DNA of 36,690 nucleotides from a virus. This document shows, one piece after another, positions 12,823-29,679 of the stretch. Every line of letters starts with the position of its first letter. Positions within the stretch are counted from its first letter, which is position 1. Below the pieces are notes generated by a model. It was given only the letters and a program-made list of their open reading frames with translations, ran no database searches and was not told where the DNA came from. A program made the position numbers and the translations under genes. The stretch is taken from IMG/VR virus record IMGVR_UViG_3300035701_000133, positions 1 to 36,690 of that record. One strand, written 5' to 3'.

Positions 12823-14031
12823 TTAACCCCAGATGCGGCAGGCCATCTGTGGACGAATGGTGCTGAAACCATACAAAACGTCGATCCTGCAAGGCATACG
12901 GTCGTTGTTGATGTCGTACTGACGAACAACGCGCAAGCTGATACCGTTATGAACTGCACGCGCAGCCATGTCAACACCTTGAGGCATCAACAAGTCAGCG
13001 GTAGCAAACGTGATAGCGTCTTTGTGGTAGACCAAGTTCTGTGCGTAAGCAGTAGAAGCGGTGCCCACAAAAGTCACAACAGCGCTAATCAGCGGCAGGG
13101 CAGTCATGGTAGCCAGTGCGTGAGCAGCGGAATACATGGGAGCCACAGTCACAGTCCAAGTGCCAGACGAAGCAGTTGCATCAGCCAGAGCCACAAACTG
13201 GAACAACGAACCAGTGGTTTCACGGGTTTGCGGATTCACAGCAAAGACGCTACCGCAAGTAAACACATCGCCAGCCTTGATGGTTGTGCTTACAGAGGCT
13301 TGCGACAGGCTCAGAGTGGAAGACCCTTCCGAAGTCACCGAAGCGGCAACAATCGTAGCGGCAGTAGCGTCACGCGAACCAGTAGTGTGCTGCTTGATCG
13401 ACTGAGACATATTGACTTCATCAAAGCCCAACACGCCAGTACCCATCATGCCGTTCTTAAACTGCTTGCTGATGGTGTCGGTGGGATTGAACAAGCCTTT
13501 CATGCCTTCAACCAAACCAGCGTTTGCAGCGGGGTTAACCGTTGCATAGCGAGGCGACATTACAGCGGCGTTTTCGTTCAGCTTCTGCTGGGCTTGCAAC
13601 AGCACCAAAGAAGTAGAAGGAGTTGTGCCGGGGGTGCCGACAGTGTTACCGATGGTTTTGTACGCATTGGCAACATCAGCATCAATGCTGGAGGCCAACT
13701 GGCTGATACGAGGCTTCAACACACGCTCTGCAAAGTCGTCCAATTGCATGGTCAATTCGGCGGAAGTGAAGTTCACGCCAATGTGTTTTTGCGAGGCGAC
13801 AGACAAAGTGGTGAACTGCTCGTTGTCGTCCTGAACTTGCAGGGCGGCACCGTCAGTGACCAAAGCGCGGTCAGGCAAACGAATACGCAAAGTAGAACCG
13901 ATCTTGGCACCACTGACAGCAAAGCTGTCGTCGTACTGACGGTTTACGTTACGGGTGAGTACCAGGTTGTTCTCGAGAATTTCGAGAGCCTTCCGGGTAA
14001 TCATGTCAATGGTTAGGATACTATTAGCCAT
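12823..14031 (-). CDS. Major coat protein, P22 gp5-like
   Basis: A 402-residue coat protein of the P22 gp5 family with the HK97 fold. The start ANSILTIDMITRKALEILEN, followed by NVNRQYDDSFAVSGAKIGST and DDFAERVLKPRISQLASSID, matches the conserved N-arm and spine of this family. A Val/Thr-rich segment at about residues 235-330 corresponds to the inserted I-domain position. The ATG at 14031 has AAGGA eight bases upstream and replaces a longer start inside the scaffold-coat gap. The C-terminus carries ALPLISAVVTFVGTASTAYA and YGFSTIRPQMACRIWG. It follows the scaffold gene, as in P22. Confidence 0.95.
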   Translation of the reverse strand: MANSILTIDMITRKALEILENNLVLTRNVNRQYDDSFAVSGAKIGSTLRIRLPDRALVTDGAALQVQDDNEQFTTLSVASQKHIGVNFTSAELTMQLDDFAERVLKPRISQLASSIDADVANAYKTIGNTVGTPGTTPSTSLVLLQAQQKLNENAAVMSPRYATVNPAANAGLVEGMKGLFNPTDTISKQFKNGMMGTGVLGFDEVNMSQSIKQHTTGSRDATAATIVAASVTSEGSSTLSLSQASVSTTIKAGDVFTCGSVFAVNPQTRETTGSLFQFVALADATASSGTWTVTVAPMYSAAHALATMTALPLISAVVTFVGTASTAYAQNLVYHKDAITFATADLLMPQGVDMAARAVHNGISLRVVRQYDINNDRMPCRIDVLYGFSTIRPQMACRIWG

Positions 14032-15447: not shown

Positions 15448-17214
15448 TTAGATTTCACTGATTCCAACTGACCAATTTGCAATGACTGTTGCAGTTGCCG
15501 TCCAATTGGCATTGCTTGTAGAAACAAGCGCGGGGCGAATAGTAGTGTTAGAAACAGAGTAGTTTGCTGCACCTATATTTTCGCCAGCACTATTTGAATA
15601 AGAGCCAGTCGCACCGCCAACAGTGGAATTTGCAACGGGTGTTCTTGGATATGGGTATCTGAATGTAATACCAGCATTAATGGTGGATGTGGTTCCTGAT
15701 GTTGCAGTCATGGAAACTGTGCCTGACTGCTGCATCATTCGTTGTGGAATGTTTTGATAGTAATTTCCCTGCGGAACATGAAGGTAAGTACCAGTAGGAA
15801 AATTGCTGACGTTATCCACCACAATTGCTTGCGAAAAAGCAGAGCCACTGTTTACGTTGGTTCTAAGTACACTGCCCATCGCATTTACATCAGCTTGGAC
15901 ACCATCAATGTAGATGTTTACGTTGACAATTGAGCCATCGTTTACGACTTTCATGAAATCCGAACCAGCAACCGCACCATCTGCATAAACATAAGTGTTT
16001 TCAACAATCAGGCTTACTGTTTCATCGGTGGATGTTGTGAGAGCGCTACTATTTCCACCAACGTCAACAATTCCACGGCCAATAGATGATGGGTCACCGC
16101 TTGTGTAAAGTTTGCAATTGCGAATAAATAATTCACCACCTTTGACTTCACTTGCGTAAACGCACCATCCACCAAAAGCAGCATAAATAATGCAATTGTC
16201 ATATCCGTTGTCTGCGCCAGCCCATCCACCGCCTTGGTAAATGGTGCAACCTTGGTAAACACAATCCTGCATATTGCCATGCATATCAGCAGAATACACA
16301 GCAGAATCTATGTCGTTGCTAATTGTCAGGTTTGAAATTCTTATGTTTCTGTTTGTAACTGCGCCCGTGCCGCTACCGCCGCCAATGGTAATGCCGTGGC
16401 GCCTTGCATAGTAATCACCACCAGTAATTTGCCCCTTTTGGCTGTTGCTAATAAGCAGACCATAATCATCCAAAGTGCCTGTGCCTTTGTTGTACATCAC
16501 GCAATTTGTAATCATTGGGCGATAGCAACGATCAATTTCTACGCCTTGATAATTTTCGTTGTAGACAATCACGTTTTCCAAAATTGGCTTGTCGCAAAAC
16601 GTAATCTTTAACAAACCAAATAAATTTGCGCCACCGTTTAGCTTTAAGTTTTTAAATGAAACTTTGGGTTTGCTGTTTAGTTTGTATACGTTGACGGTTG
16701 CAGCCGTATAAGATGAATATAGTGGATTTGTTGTGTAAGCATCTGAACCACTTACACCACGGCACTCTAGCCACTCACCAGCGTAATAATACGCACGAAT
16801 GCTGTTCCATAACACGGCATCATCAAACAAAAAGAACACATCACCTGTTGTTAAAGATGGGGCGCTTGCAAAGGTAATTGTCAAGTTACCCGCACTAGCT
16901 GACGAAACAGCTTGAATTTCAGTTATTGTTCCAGTTACGGTAATTCCAGACGAACCTGATGTTATTCCACTGAAGTCTAAGACAGACTTGTCACCATCAC
17001 CAACCATGTTCAGATGGCCTGTGCTGGTTAGTGCGCTGCCGATGATGTAAGTGCCAGCAGGAACATAAATGGCTTGCCCTGTTGCTGCTACCGCTGTAAT
17101 AGCGGCTTGCATTGCAACGGCATCATTGGTTACACCGTCACCAACCGCGCCATAGTCTTTGACATTTACTGGCGCACCAGTAATCATTGAGTAAGAAACT
17201 TTAGTCAAAGCCAT
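15448..17214 (-). CDS. Tailspike, pectate-lyase-like beta-helix
   Basis: A 588-residue receptor-binding spike. The N-terminus (MALTKVSYSMITGAPVNVKD then YGAVGDGVTNDAVAMQAAI) is the standard entry to a Pectate_lyase_3 right-handed beta-helix, which should trimerise. Ladder repeats follow to about residue 470 (for example LLISNSQKGQITGGDYYARR; IRISNLTISNDIDSAVYSAD). The C-terminal 90 residues are Thr/Ser/Asn-rich and end WSVGISEI, probably a lectin-like cap or trimerisation domain. It likely binds and cleaves host surface polysaccharide. It lacks a P22-type head-binding domain of its own, so it presumably docks on the adaptor encoded upstream. Confidence 0.9.
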   Translation of the reverse strand: MALTKVSYSMITGAPVNVKDYGAVGDGVTNDAVAMQAAITAVAATGQAIYVPAGTYIIGSALTSTGHLNMVGDGDKSVLDFSGITSGSSGITVTGTITEIQAVSSASAGNLTITFASAPSLTTGDVFFLFDDAVLWNSIRAYYYAGEWLECRGVSGSDAYTTNPLYSSYTAATVNVYKLNSKPKVSFKNLKLNGGANLFGLLKITFCDKPILENVIVYNENYQGVEIDRCYRPMITNCVMYNKGTGTLDDYGLLISNSQKGQITGGDYYARRHGITIGGGSGTGAVTNRNIRISNLTISNDIDSAVYSADMHGNMQDCVYQGCTIYQGGGWAGADNGYDNCIIYAAFGGWCVYASEVKGGELFIRNCKLYTSGDPSSIGRGIVDVGGNSSALTTSTDETVSLIVENTYVYADGAVAGSDFMKVVNDGSIVNVNIYIDGVQADVNAMGSVLRTNVNSGSAFSQAIVVDNVSNFPTGTYLHVPQGNYYQNIPQRMMQQSGTVSMTATSGTTSTINAGITFRYPYPRTPVANSTVGGATGSYSNSAGENIGAANYSVSNTTIRPALVSTSNANWTATATVIANWSVGISEI

Positions 17215-21975: not shown

Positions 21976-23495
21976 GAGCCCATCCATGATGTGTGCATTG
22001 CGCCGTCTTGAGCGTTATAGCGGCGAGTCGGCTCAGTATACTCGCGGTGAGCCACAGGAAAAGCAAACGTCACGCATATAGCGTCCGCTGCGTCTGGTGA
22101 TGCCAAGCCCCGTGCTTTCATTTCTTTCTTGCTCTCCAAGAAGATTGTTCCACGTGAATCAGGCTTCATCTTAGGCGAAATCAAATCCGTCTTCAAGAAC
22201 CTGTCGGTCGGGATACTAGCAGATTTCAACCACTCCCGCATCTCACCCCACATCTGCGCGCGCATATTTCCGTACATTATCGGGTTTTTGGACTTATTTC
22301 CAAAGTTCACACCCTTAATCTTGTACCGCTGCTCTTTGAGCCTGTCCACAATCCCAGCGCCCAGCCCACCCTCGTCGATTACTACCAGCGTCGGTTTGTA
22401 CTCTTCAATCGCGTCAATCACATACCCCACGACCGTCATTGTGTCGTCGCCCCGGTGCCGAGTGATGTTGATTATGTCCCGTCCTTGGCGCACGGCGATA
22501 ACCGTCGCGTCCGCGCCGTAGCGCGCCGGATCGACGCCGATGATGATGGGTGCTGACAAGTCTTTGTACTTCTCCCGCTTCATGGCCTCGTCCACTATGT
22601 CTGAGCCGATGAACTGGTCATCCCCCGCGCTTGGGAACATCCCGTAGACCTCGACGTGCGACTGCGATGAGTCCGGCCCGTACTCTTGGATGATCCGCTC
22701 GTAGACCTGTTTGTCCGTACCCTCTACCGTGCGCGCGTCCACCACCTTGGTTTTCCAAAACGCCCGCTTGGAGTTAAACGCCTCGTAGAAGTATCCCGTG
22801 TTGCGGCGGGGGTTGGAGAACGCCAGCCAGAAACGGTTGGGTGTGTTCTCAGTAAAAAAACCCGCAGTCACCGCCCAGATCGTGTCGTCGATACCTGACG
22901 CCTCGTCGAACACCACCAGCACGCCGTCGTAGTTATGCACACCCGCGTAGGCGTCGGGGTTCTCCGCTGACCACAGCCGCCCCTCGACGCCCCAGTACCT
23001 GGTGCCCTTCTTCAAGTCCCGCTCAACCAGTTCAGTCAGCCACTTAGCGGGCATCACCCGCGTGGCGCTGACTTCAAACCAGTGGCTGTTGATTGCCATC
23101 GCCAGCCACTTGGTAATCTCGGCCCAGGTGATACTTCTGAGTTGAGACTCGGAGTTGGCCGAGATGATGGTCGTCGAGCCGATGCGAGTCGCCAGCATCC
23201 AGATCGTGATCCAACTGACCAAGGCCGATTTGCCAATACCGCGCCCAGACGAGATGGCGCTTTGCAGCACATTGAAGTCCAGTAGCCCTTTGTTTGCCTC
23301 GATATGCTCGGCGATGTCTTGCAGCACCTCGCGCTGCCACTTGCGCGGCCCTTTAAAGTTTTCTAGCGGAGTACCCTTGACACCCCACGGGAATACCAGA
23401 GCTACAAAATTGAGCGGGTTGTCCTTGATGCGCGGCGCCCACAGACGCGCCATCAGGGCTTGTTCGTCTTCAGCGCTGTATCTGGTGGACTGCAT
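21972..23495 (-). CDS. terL: Terminase large subunit
   Basis: A 507-residue packaging motor with ATPase and nuclease. The Walker A is SSGRGIGKSALVSW near residue 83, Walker B with catalytic Glu is VLVVFDEASGID near residue 197, and the coupling segment is FSNPRRNTGYFYEAF. The RNase H-like nuclease has Asp in IIGVDPARYGADATVIAV near residue 322, a second acidic site in LVVIDEGGLGAGIV, and a third in SPDAADAICVTFAFP. It drives headful-type packaging if the P22-like layout extends to packaging, which I infer. It overlaps the small subunit gene by 26 bases and the following gene by ATGA. Confidence 0.96.
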   Translation of the reverse strand: MQSTRYSAEDEQALMARLWAPRIKDNPLNFVALVFPWGVKGTPLENFKGPRKWQREVLQDIAEHIEANKGLLDFNVLQSAISSGRGIGKSALVSWITIWMLATRIGSTTIISANSESQLRSITWAEITKWLAMAINSHWFEVSATRVMPAKWLTELVERDLKKGTRYWGVEGRLWSAENPDAYAGVHNYDGVLVVFDEASGIDDTIWAVTAGFFTENTPNRFWLAFSNPRRNTGYFYEAFNSKRAFWKTKVVDARTVEGTDKQVYERIIQEYGPDSSQSHVEVYGMFPSAGDDQFIGSDIVDEAMKREKYKDLSAPIIIGVDPARYGADATVIAVRQGRDIINITRHRGDDTMTVVGYVIDAIEEYKPTLVVIDEGGLGAGIVDRLKEQRYKIKGVNFGNKSKNPIMYGNMRAQMWGEMREWLKSASIPTDRFLKTDLISPKMKPDSRGTIFLESKKEMKARGLASPDAADAICVTFAFPVAHREYTEPTRRYNAQDGAMHTSWMGS

Positions 23496-23880
23496 CGACT
23501 ACCTCAATGACGCGCATCTCTGCTTCTTGCAGCGCCTGCGTGATGGATATGCGCTGGTCAATGTCCACCGTGATGGACTGCTTGGCGACCCAGCCGTGCT
23601 GGTGCTTGAGAATCTCAAGCGCCGCCTTGGCGTCGCCCTCGCGGGCGGCTTTGTGCAGGATGTCGGCCATCTCGCGCTCGCCGTCGGCTTTGCCTTTGAT
23701 CGCGGCCATCTCGGCCAGCGCGTCAAATTGGCACAGGTGCCGGTACTCTTCAGGCCGCATCCCAGAAGCCAGCGCCAGCGTGTCGCCCTTGAGCCCCAGC
23801 TTGGCAGCGTCGTATATCGCCTGCAAGCGCGATTCGGTTGCTTGGACGTTTCGGACAGTGAGCGGCAGTGATTTGAACAT
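23470..23880 (-). CDS. terS: Terminase small subunit
   Basis: A 136-residue protein immediately upstream of terL. The N-terminal half has helix-turn-helix character (ESRLQAIYDAAKLGLKGDTL; ALASGMRPEEYRHLCQFD) for DNA recognition. The central helices (ADGEREMADILHKAAREGDA; KAALEILKHQHGWVAKQSIT) form the typical oligomerisation region. It should bind the packaging site, probably close by in 23881-24270, and hand DNA to TerL. AGGAGAACAA precedes the ATG. A TATAAA on the minus strand (23921-23916) could be the -10 of its own promoter, without a good -35. First gene of the 22.6-kb late block. Confidence 0.88.
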   Translation of the reverse strand: MFKSLPLTVRNVQATESRLQAIYDAAKLGLKGDTLALASGMRPEEYRHLCQFDALAEMAAIKGKADGEREMADILHKAAREGDAKAALEILKHQHGWVAKQSITVDIDQRISITQALQEAEMRVIEVVDAVHQIQR

Positions 23881-24004
23881 TTGTTCTCCTGCGCCTGGGA
23901 GGCGTGTGCGTGGATTTTATATTAAAAAAATTTTGTTTGTGGCCCCTCCGTTTACGTTGGCCCAATCGCTCGGCCCTACCCCCTCCCCCTGGCTGAAATT
24001 CTAC

Positions 24005-24066
24005 GCAAAATGGCAAGCAATCCCTAGGCAAAATGGCAAGCAAATACTAGTCAGAATGGCAAGCGG
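24005..24066 (+). repeat. Three iteron-like direct repeats, 23-bp period
   Basis: AATGGCAAGC occurs at 24009, 24032 and 24055, exactly 23 bp apart. The first two copies share the longer word GCAAAATGGCAAGCAA; the third is CAGAATGGCAAGC. Regular two-turn spacing is typical of iterons for a replication initiator or of a terminase recognition array. Confidence 0.85.
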
Positions 24067-24080
24067 TTGGCCATGGGGAT

Positions 24081-24104
24081 GTGGGTCATGTAGGCATGAC
24101 CCAC
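24081..24104. repeat. Long inverted repeat, copy 1
   Basis: GTGGGTCATG and CATGACCCAC form a perfect 10-bp stem around the loop TAGG. An identical 24-base element lies 70 bp downstream, and the word TGGGTCATGT occurs a third time at 24242. Protein-binding site or DNA hairpin in the origin/packaging region. Confidence 0.85.
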
Positions 24105-24125
24105 CTAGTCGCATGCTGTCCGATA

Positions 24126-24146
24126 CCGGCCACCGGCCACCGGCCA
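24126..24146 (+). repeat. Tandem CCGGCCA x3
   Basis: Three contiguous CCGGCCA units lie between the two long inverted repeats. A second short tandem, CATGTGGC x2, is at 24198-24213. Confidence 0.85.
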
Positions 24147-24150
24147 CCAT

Positions 24151-24174
24151 GTGGGTCATGTAGGCATGACCCAC
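24151..24174. repeat. Long inverted repeat, copy 2
   Basis: Identical to 24081-24104 over all 24 bases, 70 bp away (close to 6.7 helical turns). A partial, imperfect third copy (TGGGTCATGTGGGCACCCA) is at 24242-24260. Confidence 0.85.
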
Positions 24175-24304
24175 GGGGTTAGAGTGCTCCCGTAAACCAT
24201 GTGGCCATGTGGCGCCAGCAAAATACAGCGATTGTGTGCGATGGGTCATGTGGGCACCCAAAACAGCGTTTTCAAATCGCTCTACCCCATATTGAATATT
24301 TATT

Positions 24305-24324
24305 ACTGTAAAGGAATTCCTTAC
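24305..24324 (-). promoter_or_regulatory. Operator-like dyad with possible leftward -10
   Basis: GTAAAGGAATTCCTTAC at 24308-24324 is a near-palindrome. On the minus strand it runs directly into TACAGT (24310-24305), a possible -10 of a leftward promoter for the terS operon; the -35 is weak. It matches 13 of 17 positions of the dyad at 24485-24501. Confidence 0.5.
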
Positions 24325-24422
24325 AAAATAACACTTGATAACTTGATATAAAACAATGACAATTTAGCCCACAATTACACTATCCCCAATGAGATGCATG
24401 AAAACTGCCGCCACCCACAAAA

Positions 24423-24436
24423 CACCATGCATGGTG
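24423..24436. promoter_or_regulatory. 14-bp perfect palindrome
   Basis: CACCATGCATGGTG is its own reverse complement. It lies about 40 bases upstream of the candidate rightward promoter, so a dimeric regulator could bind here. Confidence 0.5.
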
Positions 24437-24475
24437 CCCACAAAATGCCCAATAGTTGACTAATGTTAAGGGCTA

Positions 24476-24504
24476 TTGCATTGTGTAAGAAAATCCCTTA
24501 CACT
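24476..24504 (+). promoter_or_regulatory. Candidate rightward promoter with overlapping operator dyad
   Basis: TTGCAT (24476-24481) and TACACT (24499-24504) are 17 bases apart and form a weak sigma70-like promoter. The spacer and the -10 are covered by GTAAGAAAATCCCTTAC (24485-24501), the second of two related dyads. This is the classic position for a repressor site controlling the small-gene block starting at 24550. Confidence 0.5.
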
Positions 24505-24531
24505 ATCGACCGTAGCAGCTTCGCTACTTAA

Positions 24532-24549
24532 TACAGCAAAAGGCAAATT
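24532..24549 (+). promoter_or_regulatory. Repeated leader motif TACAGYAAAAGGCAAA before start codons
   Basis: TACAGCAAAAGGCAAATT immediately precedes the ATG at 24550. The same leader occurs before the ATG at 24818 (TACAGTAAAAGGCAAAATAC), as AAGGGCAAATT before 25644, and as TACAGTAAATTGGAGTAAAT before 26217. The AAGG core can act as a weak Shine-Dalgarno. Confidence 0.65.
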
Positions 24550-25570: not shown

Positions 25571-25579
25571 TGATCGCGA

Positions 25580-25607
25580 CCGTATGCGCCCGATCGGGCG
25601 CATACGG
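25580..25607. promoter_or_regulatory. 28-bp perfect palindrome between cassettes
   Basis: Every one of the 28 bases pairs with its mirror: left arm CCGTATGCGCCCGA, right arm its reverse complement, with GATC at the centre. It starts nine bases after the stop of the Cys-rich gene. There is no U-tract. It can form a very stable RNA stem or cruciform, or bind a dimeric protein. Confidence 0.85.
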
Positions 25608-25643
25608 GCGCGCACTGTGCACGCTATAACCTAAGGGCAAATT

Positions 25644-26216: not shown

Positions 26217-26471
26217 ATGTTCGATCGAATTAAAAACGATATAAACGGTAATCCGCGGTTTGTGTGCCATTTTTTGGACCTAGAACCCGCGACGCCGGAC
26301 AGGCAAAGTACCCTGCCCGAACGATATGACAGGGTCCTAAAATGCGCGCGCCAATTGGGCGGCCGCCGATACCACAATAAATCGTATGGTGGCGGCATTG
26401 TGTTCCAAGCATACGAGCACCAATTAGAAGATATCGCAACCCGCGTGCGCGCATTAGGGGCCGCACAATGA
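26217..26471 (+). CDS. Conserved phage hypothetical protein
   Basis: An 84-residue protein (MFDRIKNDINGNPRFVCHFL; RYDRVLKCARQLGGRRYHNK; SYGGGIVFQAYEHQLEDIAT). The RKYHNKSYGGGIVFQxY-like core is one I associate with uncharacterised phage proteins of the same neighbourhood. It may be a small alpha/beta nucleic-acid-interacting protein, given the many Arg and His residues. It opens the fourth cassette behind the leader TACAGTAAATTGGAG, which includes a better Shine-Dalgarno (TTGGAG), and is linked to the next gene by ATGA. Confidence 0.8.
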   Translation: MFDRIKNDINGNPRFVCHFLDLEPATPDRQSTLPERYDRVLKCARQLGGRRYHNKSYGGGIVFQAYEHQLEDIATRVRALGAAQ

Positions 26472-27347: not shown

Positions 27348-27400
27348 TCGCAGCGGCCCTTGTGGCCGCGATCCTGGCGATCTTGTTCGATCTAGATTAA
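27338..27400 (+). CDS. Possible 20-residue hydrophobic peptide
   Basis: MLIIAAALVAAILAILFDLD starts inside the last codons of the previous gene and ends at the TAA just before the terminator stem. It is one hydrophobic helix with an acidic end. It could be a genuine micropeptide or chance; there is no clear separate Shine-Dalgarno. Its stop codon overlaps the convergent primase-helicase stop. Confidence 0.4.
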   Translation: MLIIAAALVAAILAILFDLD

Positions 27401-29679
27401 GCCCCTTCGGGGGCTTTTTCTATGGCGCGGCGCAAGTCTGATTTATTGCTTTTGGCTAACTCAGGCGCGCAGAAAATGTGTTTCTTGGTCTGATACTCGC
27501 GCGACGCCAGGCGGCCCATGTCCACCCATCCGGCCTCTTTCAGCGCGTGCATAAGCGCCGGGGGGACGATCTTTATCCCTGCTGGGGCGTATAGCTGCAA
27601 TTCATCGCAGATCGCGTAAAAAGGCGCGCCTACCACGCCGGACGCAAACGCACGCTGCCGGGCCTTGATTAGGTTGACCAGGAAGGACTCAGCGCCGCTC
27701 ATGCCATGCTCGACCATGATCGCCTTGGCCTCTGTCATTGGGGGCGCTGCATTGGGGTTCCACGCGGACACGTCACGCGAGTGTAGGTAAGCCGCCACGG
27801 CGGCGAAGCCGCCCCGGTGCTCGTACCAATTCCAAAGGGCGACCGCCTCTGCTTCGGGCAACTTACCGGCCTCCGACCATAGGACAAACCACCGCCGGTC
27901 TTCGCTGGGCAACGATATCGCTACGCGCTCATTGCTAAACGCCACCACGAAAACGCGGTTCAAAGCGTAATAAGGATGTAAGCCCTTGCGGTTGACCATA
28001 AGCAACTCGGGCGGCGCTGCGATGATGGGCTTGAGGGTATTCTCCAGCGCGCGCCGGTCTTTGGCCTCTGCCTGTCGCAACTCGGCGATCTCCATCACTT
28101 CACACTCGAGGGCGTAGCCCCATTGCGAATTGAGATCTTCATTCTTAACCAGGGAGCAATTGGCCTTGGCCTTGCCGCCTATGGCCCAAAAGAACGGGGC
28201 GAACAGGGTGTCTTTGCCCGACCCATGATTGCCGCCCAAGAGGATGGCGTGGTTGATCTTGTGGCTGGGGAACTGCACTTTATGGGCTAGGGCGTTTAAA
28301 AGATGCTCGCGCTCGAATTCAATTGGCACCATGCGCTCGACATGGCGCAGCCACGCGGACACATCAGCGGCCACCGGCTCGGGCCGGGCGTCACGCCAGC
28401 GGTTGCCGTACACCAAGCCCTCACGGGCGACCAACACCGACTCGCCTGCGGCGTAAGTGATACCGACCAGGGCGCGGGCTCCCTTGTCTTGGCGGTACTC
28501 GTCAAAGGAATTGGACGCCTCGATCTTGGGGTGCTTGCCATGCCGTGACTTGCAATTGATATGCCGAAACAAGGCGTTGAAGGTCTTACGCATCACCTCG
28601 CGCCGGTCTTCCATGTCAAAGTACGCATCATCGTTCTGTATGTACGCAAACCGCTCGAACCAGCCGGACATCTCCACGCGGCCCAACTCGCGATGCTCGA
28701 CCTCGGCGATGACTGTCGCGGCCTCGTCTGGGTATGACGGCGTCGGGGTTAGCTTGGACAGGGTGTTCTCCATCACTGCCGCCAGCAACTCATCGCGCAG
28801 GCCATGCGACCGCTTGGGGCCACCCTGCTCTTCCACCCACGCAAGATAGGCCACGCTGTCCAGATGGGCGCAATGCTCATGCAGGCAGCAATAGGCGCGG
28901 TTTACGGGGTGATAACGCCCCATCGGGTTGCCGTCGCTATGCTCGGCGCTGTTCGGGCAAACGATGCCCCACCAGCCGCTGCTGTTGCCCTTCTCCAGCA
29001 AGTCGCCGCGCGCTGCTGCCCACGCCAGCACGTCATCGCCGCCGTCGTCTGTGAGCCGGATCGGGCGCACTGTGGCGGTGTCGGCTGGGTTGGGGGTGAC
29101 GCCCAAGGCGGTGCATATAACTTCTAAAGAAAATTCCCTCTCGGGGTGGAACTCAACCAAGGCAGACGCGAAGCGGTCACGCCCAGGCTTGAGGTTAATC
29201 GAGCCCGGCAGTCTGAAATTACGGACGGGGTTAATCGCGCCGCCGTCGGTAAAGCCTGCCTCTGCGATGGCGACAATGGCCGCGCTGAACTCGCCCTTCA
29301 TGGGCTGATCGTCCAGCGCGAAGGTGTAGCCGTACTGGTAATTGTTGGGGCTGGTCTCCATGATCCACGTCGGGGCGATGGGCGGCATTTTGGCCTTGGT
29401 GCCCACGTCATCCAGCACTAGGAACGCTACACGCTCACAGGCGTCGGCCTTGGCGGCGGGCTTGCCCTCGTCGAATCGGTCGATGATGAAACAGCCGGTG
29501 TTGCAGTACCACGCTTGGTCGGGCTTCCACTTCTTGGGCAGGAACGCAGGCCACGCGCACTTGACTGCGCCGTCGGCGTGGTGCTGCACTTCGCCATCTT
29601 TCAAAATCGGCTTCTGCCGTACGAACAAAATAACCTCGCCCTCGGGCGCAATGTTTTCGAGATAAGTTAAAAAATTCAT
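27397..29679 (-). CDS. Primase-helicase (RepB-like primase, DUF5906-like helicase)
   Basis: A 760-residue replication protein. The N-terminal third resembles an archaeo-eukaryotic RepB-type primase: VAFLVLDDVGTKAK near residue 85 with acidic residues, SPNNYQYGYTFAL, and NPVRNFRLPGSINLKPGRDR. A Cys/His set at residues of about 240-272 (CPNSAEH...CCLHEHC) may bind zinc. The C-terminal half has a superfamily 3-type helicase: Walker A GGNHGSGKDTLF near residue 482-493, Walker B-like ECEVMEIAELRQ and the downstream NRVFVVAFSNERVAISLPSE. It should unwind DNA and lay primers for the phage polymerase. The start overlaps the polymerase gene by ATGA. Confidence 0.88.
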   Translation of the reverse strand: MNFLTYLENIAPEGEVILFVRQKPILKDGEVQHHADGAVKCAWPAFLPKKWKPDQAWYCNTGCFIIDRFDEGKPAAKADACERVAFLVLDDVGTKAKMPPIAPTWIMETSPNNYQYGYTFALDDQPMKGEFSAAIVAIAEAGFTDGGAINPVRNFRLPGSINLKPGRDRFASALVEFHPEREFSLEVICTALGVTPNPADTATVRPIRLTDDGGDDVLAWAAARGDLLEKGNSSGWWGIVCPNSAEHSDGNPMGRYHPVNRAYCCLHEHCAHLDSVAYLAWVEEQGGPKRSHGLRDELLAAVMENTLSKLTPTPSYPDEAATVIAEVEHRELGRVEMSGWFERFAYIQNDDAYFDMEDRREVMRKTFNALFRHINCKSRHGKHPKIEASNSFDEYRQDKGARALVGITYAAGESVLVAREGLVYGNRWRDARPEPVAADVSAWLRHVERMVPIEFEREHLLNALAHKVQFPSHKINHAILLGGNHGSGKDTLFAPFFWAIGGKAKANCSLVKNEDLNSQWGYALECEVMEIAELRQAEAKDRRALENTLKPIIAAPPELLMVNRKGLHPYYALNRVFVVAFSNERVAISLPSEDRRWFVLWSEAGKLPEAEAVALWNWYEHRGGFAAVAAYLHSRDVSAWNPNAAPPMTEAKAIMVEHGMSGAESFLVNLIKARQRAFASGVVGAPFYAICDELQLYAPAGIKIVPPALMHALKEAGWVDMGRLASREYQTKKHIFCAPELAKSNKSDLRRAIEKAPEGA
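27401..27419 (+). terminator. Rightward terminator inside 3' codons of primase-helicase gene
   Basis: GCCCC-TTCG-GGGGC followed by TTTTT on the plus strand is a textbook intrinsic terminator with a UUCG loop. The same bases encode the last residues (KAPEGA) of the gene on the minus strand. It ends the rightward small-gene block at the convergent junction. Confidence 0.9.

Follow-up and report, generated by a model that had tools for sequence, protein, structure and literature searches.

A putative iteron-type replication origin and a candidate recognition code in the SF3 helicase-primase of a mostly environmental phage group

Repeated 9-bp boxes upstream of the terminase genes of an uncultivated phage very probably form a replication origin of the iteron type, with the SF3 helicase-primase of the same phage as its likely initiator. 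The stretch of DNA analysed (the window) is a phage record of 36,690 bases with a 230-bp terminal repeat (one mismatch). In the window and in its relatives the boxes are confined to one site, and their sequence covaries with the wing of a predicted winged helix in the helicase-primase, which looks like a protein-DNA recognition code.

The window encodes P22-type portal and coat proteins, a DNA polymerase, an exonuclease and the SF3 helicase-primase. The repeats sit in a gap of 669 bp (23881-24549) between divergent genes, on which an earlier note on this DNA was silent, with the leftward terS/terL block on one side and rightward early genes on the other. The left bound of the site is a gene for a 136-aa protein (23470-23880, minus strand) that precedes and overlaps terL and is taken as terS; it had no family match above cut-off. 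GC skew gave no clear origin signal. Within the gap, a palindrome of the type TGTAAGG...CCTTACA was seen by eye at two places (24307-24325 and 24483-24503), with similar words in relatives; the second of these lies between the elements of a -35/-10-like pair (24476-24504), in its 17-bp spacer, and is placed like a repressor operator. Further to the right, a near-perfect 19-nt inverted repeat with zero spacer (25575-25612), possibly a terminator or an operator, lies between two rightward ORFs. An ORF at 26217-26471 of this P22-like environmental phage scores 65 bits (cut-off 22) against Pfam Phage_TreK, a family of terminal-repeat proteins of Staphylococcus phage. Contigs of two primase relatives (L191 and L197, 93% and 63% identity) were binned with Rhodoferax MAGs, a weak hint of a betaproteobacterial host.

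The earlier note had described two identical 24-bp hairpins 70 bp apart, a degenerate third copy and tandem repeats, and had proposed a specialised cis site such as a pac site or a double-strand origin. The repeats are real. The sequence GTGGGTCATG-TAGG-CATGACCCAC is present at 24081-24104 and, with an identical loop, at 24151-24174, 70 bp from start to start; the word TGGGTCATGT occurs again at 24242, and tandems of CCGGCCA (three copies, 24126-24146) and CATGTGGC (two copies, 24198-24213) were confirmed. All five occurrences of TGGGTCATG in the window fall at the site (0.33 expected), a number reached in 0 of 100 shuffles. The hairpin, in turn, is a by-product: each 24-mer consists of two 9-bp boxes in direct orientation, TGTGGGTCA and TGTAGGCAT, with one inverted half-box after them, and it is this half-box that gives the window its hairpins. 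Relatives have lost the hairpin and kept the tandem 9-bp boxes. A unit of about 70 bp seems to have been duplicated, with the two hairpin copies as its remnants.

Read as boxes, the left part of the site starts with box A1 (TGTGGGTCA, 24080-24088, plus strand), the left arm of hairpin 1, and the directly tandem box A2 (TGTAGGCAT, 24089-24097, plus strand), followed by the inverted half-box TGACCCACC (24097-24105, minus strand) as right arm. Boxes B1 (TGTGGGTCA, 24150-24158) and B2 (TGTAGGCAT, 24159-24167), both on the plus strand, precede the inverted half-box TGACCCACG (24167-24175, minus strand), the right arm of hairpin 2. The degenerate third copy of the earlier note is the inner left pair C1-C2 (GATGGGTCA-TGTGGGCAC, 24240-24257, plus strand), and many relatives carry a full box pair at this place. 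An AT-rich stretch (24287-24366, 78% A+T, centre at offset 446 from 23880) is the candidate DNA-unwinding element. On the minus strand at its right lie the inner right boxes D (TGTGGGCTA, then the degenerate AATTGTCAT, 24356-24373), box E0 (TGTGGGTGG, 24411-24419) and box E1 (TGTGGGCAC, 24434-24442); these other-strand copies (24365-24373, 24411-24419 and 24434-24442) were absent from the earlier note. Forward boxes in the window start at 24080, 24089, 24150, 24159 and 24249, with a two-mismatch box at 24240, and reverse boxes at 24365, 24411 and 24434.

For the comparison with relatives we used 80 loci with a gene related to that of the adjacent 136-aa protein (the presumed TerS), from which those with no primase in the fetched DNA or a short upstream region were dropped, and 70 new loci found through the primase. 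As in iteron origins, a single locus as a rule carries one short box in several direct copies: tandem repeats at lag 9 formed 217 runs versus 3.2 expected and were present in 59 of 63 non-redundant regions. The window has irregular boxes and is one of the four regions without a lag-9 run of at least 7, since its second boxes differ from the first (TGTGGGTCA-TGTAGGCAT). Box sequence varies by lineage (TGTTGGCTA, TGTTGGCAG, TGTGGGTCA, TGTCGGCAT, TGTGTGTCA/TGTGTGCCA, TGTAGTCAT, TGTGGACAA, TGTAGGCAA, TTTGGGTCA and others). With one mismatch allowed, 14 genomes had 4-14 matches to their own box per 760 bp at the site and at most 1-3 elsewhere. The view of a specialised cis site is borne out.

The geometry is conserved as well. 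Boxes are typically arranged in head-to-tail pairs with a 9-bp pitch, and the distance between inner box pairs is often about 110-140 bp. In 71 regions (L177 and L178 excluded), 286 boxes left of the AT-rich stretch were forward and 68 reverse, while 44 on its right were forward and 179 reverse; matches within one region are non-independent in these counts, and in a few regions, such as L171 and L190, the automatic procedure placed the AT window wrongly. As most boxes on the left (286/354) are forward and most on the right (179/223) are reverse, the boxes face inwards. Across regions an 80-bp window of 60-81% A+T lies between the inward-facing boxes, as expected for an unwinding element.

The proposed initiator is a protein of 760 aa (27397-29679, minus strand). 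It matches DUF5906 with 41.9 bits (cut-off 27.6), and the closest solved protein by sequence is the NrS-1 primase over the SF3 region (E 1.2e-10), which identifies an SF3 helicase domain. The match to RepB_primase (15 bits) is below the cut-off of 24.3, that to phrog_1156 'DNA primase' spans residues 407-676 only, and there was no NCBIfam model match. Best BFVD matches were phage primase-polymerases and NrS-1-like helicases. Two AlphaFold2 models predict a C-terminal winged-helix domain (residues ~660-755; 27415-27702, minus strand; pLDDT ~90 over the domain), which we propose to be origin-binding. It matched no Pfam family, a sequence profile search gave nothing credible, and PDB fold searches returned weak, tied matches to other winged helices, with the P4 origin-binding domain absent among the matches listed. 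The wing (residues 719-737; 27469-27525, minus strand) is modelled as strand-loop-strand, with strands at residues 719-724 and 733-737 and a loop at 725-732; the putative code residues 723, 725, 726 and 727, assigned from the covariation described below, thus lie in the wing.

Reading of the alignments showed that the C-terminal primase motif G-R-L-A-S-R varies in step with the box, while TerS is near-invariant. After collapsing near-identical loci (at least 97%, same box) from 120 to 73, all 63 loci with G at box position 2 had Arg727, and none of the ten loci lacking that G did. The locus L033 (frame broken) was excluded from the primase set, as were L133, L149, L161, L164, L167, L173, L179, L181, L182 and L186, for which the origin region was missing, not found or not called. 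Among about 750 primase columns the next best for box position 2 scores 0.65, compared to 1.00 for residue 727. In query-anchored alignments of other proteins, the best columns reached 0.59 (TerS), 0.67 (TerL), 0.60 (polymerase) and 0.68 (a nucleotidyltransferase-like protein), and one exonuclease column, seen in 30 loci, reached 0.96. In a tree built from primase residues 1-600 of 68 loci, the traits Arg/not-Arg and G/not-G change seven times each. Such changes separate relatives, as in L171 (Lys, TTTGGGCAA) versus L183 (Arg, TGTGGGCAA) and in L156 (Ser, TATGGACAA) versus L151 (Arg, TGTAGGCAA).

For box positions 4, 4-6 and 6, shuffle-corrected mutual information was highest with residue 725. 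Lys725 goes with G at box position 4 (18/18), Thr or Met725 with TGTAGT (7/7), Ser725 with TGTCGG (2/2 non-redundant) and His725 together with Leu723 with TGTGTG (5/5 curated, including L073 with mixed boxes), while Ala725 is permissive at position 4. The rule for position 5 is not strict, as L185 combines Leu723 with TGTGGG and L073 has mixed boxes. Arginine reading guanine is ordinary chemistry. Since residue and base covary in repeated independent events, we propose that direct contact explains the data best. It is a reasonable, though less secure, reading of this covariation that the wing loop 723-727 would read the 9-bp iteron residue by residue, and that at least 8 distinct origin specificities, some perhaps mutually orthogonal, evolved within the phage family by 1-3 amino-acid changes together with changes in about ten box copies.

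For the 63/63 and residue-725 tables the box phase was set by hand. Fully automatic phase calls (118 loci) gave 91 loci with G and 16 without G for Arg, and 1 with G and 10 without G in the absence of Arg (p = 5e-7). Most of the 16 deviating calls were shifted words or other repeats; the box competes with other local repeats and with shifted words such as TTTGTTGGC, which made automatic phasing fail in part. A second, less clean automatic method yielded 97 G and 9 not G with Arg, 4 G and 6 not G without Arg, and 2 no-calls. We also applied a phase-free count, in which box positions 4-8 were fixed and position 2 was measured instead of chosen: of 472 core occurrences with Arg727, 388 had G there, as against 3 of 82 without Arg727.

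Predictions were written before looking at ten loci, and all nine that were testable held; at the tenth (L181) the DNA ends before the site. Main boxes without G at position 2 had been predicted for L172, L175, L178 and L188 (which also has other repeats), and boxes with G for L166, L176, L177, L187 and L190. With regard to residue 725, TGTAGT is seen at both loci with Met725 and TGTG at the one with Lys725. From a second collection (genome_contigs) seven loci were examined: the three testable ones (L191, L193, L197) agree, and for the other four the downstream DNA was too short or no box turned up.

In the outgroup MW202483 (L083, 49% identity) the wing is altered and lacks Arg (GMCFAPEL), and its TGTAAAC-containing repeats are of ambiguous phase; the code may therefore not extend beyond the clade. 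In the same record (16181-16477 and 12980-13350) a DnaA domain-IV protein is encoded, and TGTTTAC/GTAAACA repeats are present in the equivalent gap; this is possibly a different initiator system. The box of the window and its relatives resembles the DnaA box, which is TGTGGATAA. A DnaA-box array was rejected, since a DnaA domain-IV protein (PF08299) was found in 1 of 50 records, namely MW202483, and the other 49 were without it.

Other functions of the site have to be weighed against that of an origin. Binding of the small terminase to the repeats to start headful packaging would make the site a pac site, and the position of the repeats directly upstream of terS/terL, the P22-type portal and coat, and contigs that open at differing map positions with terminal repeats of 123-127 bp or 230 bp, as fits a permuted genome, can all be cited for it. 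We nevertheless regard it as quite improbable: TerS is 97-99% identical where the boxes are TGTTGGCTA, TGTTGGCAG or TGTGGGTCA, and no column of TerS (best 0.59) or TerL (0.67) tracks box position 2. TerS invariance and the column test led us to reject TerS as the box binder, and the pac proposal is thus not supported for the hairpin repeats. Better candidates for a pac element are three 23-bp repeats with a AATGGCAAG core (24001-24069, plus strand), a separate element beside terS that was absent from the earlier note and is possibly the pac site. Relatives have 0-7 copies of them as counted, nearly all in the clade with TerS identity of at least 90% (one single copy in L081). Upstream of terS, loci of other clades (L073 and L156) have different repeat arrays at the same place (a 7-bp CAGCCAG type and a type of about 23 bp, GTTAGTGAGCACTTACATA), which suggests a second fast-evolving site.

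An array of operators, through which the helicase-primase (by autoregulation) or another factor would control the two divergent operons, is unlikely, as the covarying protein is the replicative helicase-primase and the inward boxes around an AT-rich stretch keep their geometry; the divergent intergenic location and the -35/-10-like pair near 24476-24504 (by eye) would nevertheless suit it. Initiators often autoregulate, and a regulatory side role of the boxes is possible. Hardly credible is the idea that the stem itself is the signal, be it in a cruciform or single-strand hairpin origin or in an RNA structure. As single-stranded DNA the hairpin folds with a perfect 10-bp stem (-11.3 kcal/mol, z -4.4), but beyond the window the exact 24-mer turned up in just two IMG/VR contigs, and of the 67 upstream regions of full length L004 alone shares the hairpin with the window. 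The arms change across relatives without compensation, an outcome that the earlier note itself had named as speaking against its proposal, and neither a tRNA nor, by Rfam, an RNA family was found at the site. With the stem not conserved and the arms uncompensated, the hairpin was rejected as the signal in the form stated by the note. The suggested double-strand origin does not stand in the hairpin sense and survives, with good support, as an origin of the iteron type.

The functional class to which this iteron origin would belong is known already from P4 alpha, SaPI Rep and Cch2. P4 alpha is a multifunctional priming and unwinding protein with a winged-helix domain that binds origin repeats (PMC4234260), and the helicase-primase described here appears analogous to it as a priming/unwinding initiator with a winged helix. 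The P4 alpha primase is described in the available text as bacterial-type (Toprim), unlike the protein here, and in our phages pairs with 9-bp pitch lie on both sides of the AT-rich stretch and turn over rapidly. Pfam and the listed PDB fold matches revealed no relationship between the winged helix and the origin-binding domain of P4. In SaPI Rep and SCCmec Cch2 the helicase C-terminal domain recognises short iterons, and according to the available text the isolated Cch2 domain binds direct repeats while deletion of inverted repeats was without effect (PMC7581432). The combination of helicase C-terminal domain and short iterons seems analogous here; SaPI/SCCmec origins, as far as this source describes them, lie just downstream of the helicase gene, whereas the site here is about 3 kb away, upstream of terS, and the available text reports no residue-to-base code.

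For NrS-1, two copies of an 8-nt recognition sequence were proposed as a possible origin (PMC7102993); that text, as far as available, names no iteron array, in contrast to the array present here. The NrS-1 polymerase is the closest solved relative over the SF3 region, and a similar fold is present in its C-terminal region at the corresponding position (Z 4.3-4.5, a score tied with many others). In Vibrio cholerae, origin iterons and origin-binding domains of PLE RepA and ICP1 Odn diversify under conflict, as the available text describes (PMC8263062). Iterons and binding domains likewise diversify in our phages; RepA/Odn is a different protein system. Competitors that target origins, or incompatibility with co-infecting relatives, could be behind the turnover of specificity in the phages here. 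A search of the open-licence literature, by title and start of the abstract, returned no report of this origin family or of the wing-box code.

From what the boxes and the protein look like, we infer the following course of initiation. The head-to-tail pairs of 9-bp boxes lie on either side of the AT-rich stretch and point to it. The SF3 helicase-primase would bind them via the wing of its C-terminal winged-helix domain, with Arg727 reading G at box position 2 and residue 725 (with 723) helping to set positions 4-6. Two opposed helicase assemblies may then melt the AT-rich stretch, from which bidirectional synthesis would start. An SF3 helicase-primase binding inward-pointing paired boxes around an AT-rich stretch would be best explained as an origin initiator.

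For a group of uncultivated, mostly environmental phages, in which the start of replication was previously unmarked, sequence alone has yielded a predicted origin, initiator and recognition rule. Provided that the code holds, a handful of residues would suffice to predict origin specificity. It also raises the tractable question of how an initiator and many copies of its target can switch specificity together without a dead intermediate. The clade of the window itself may show the route, because Ala725 proteins occur in it with T, G or A at box position 4.
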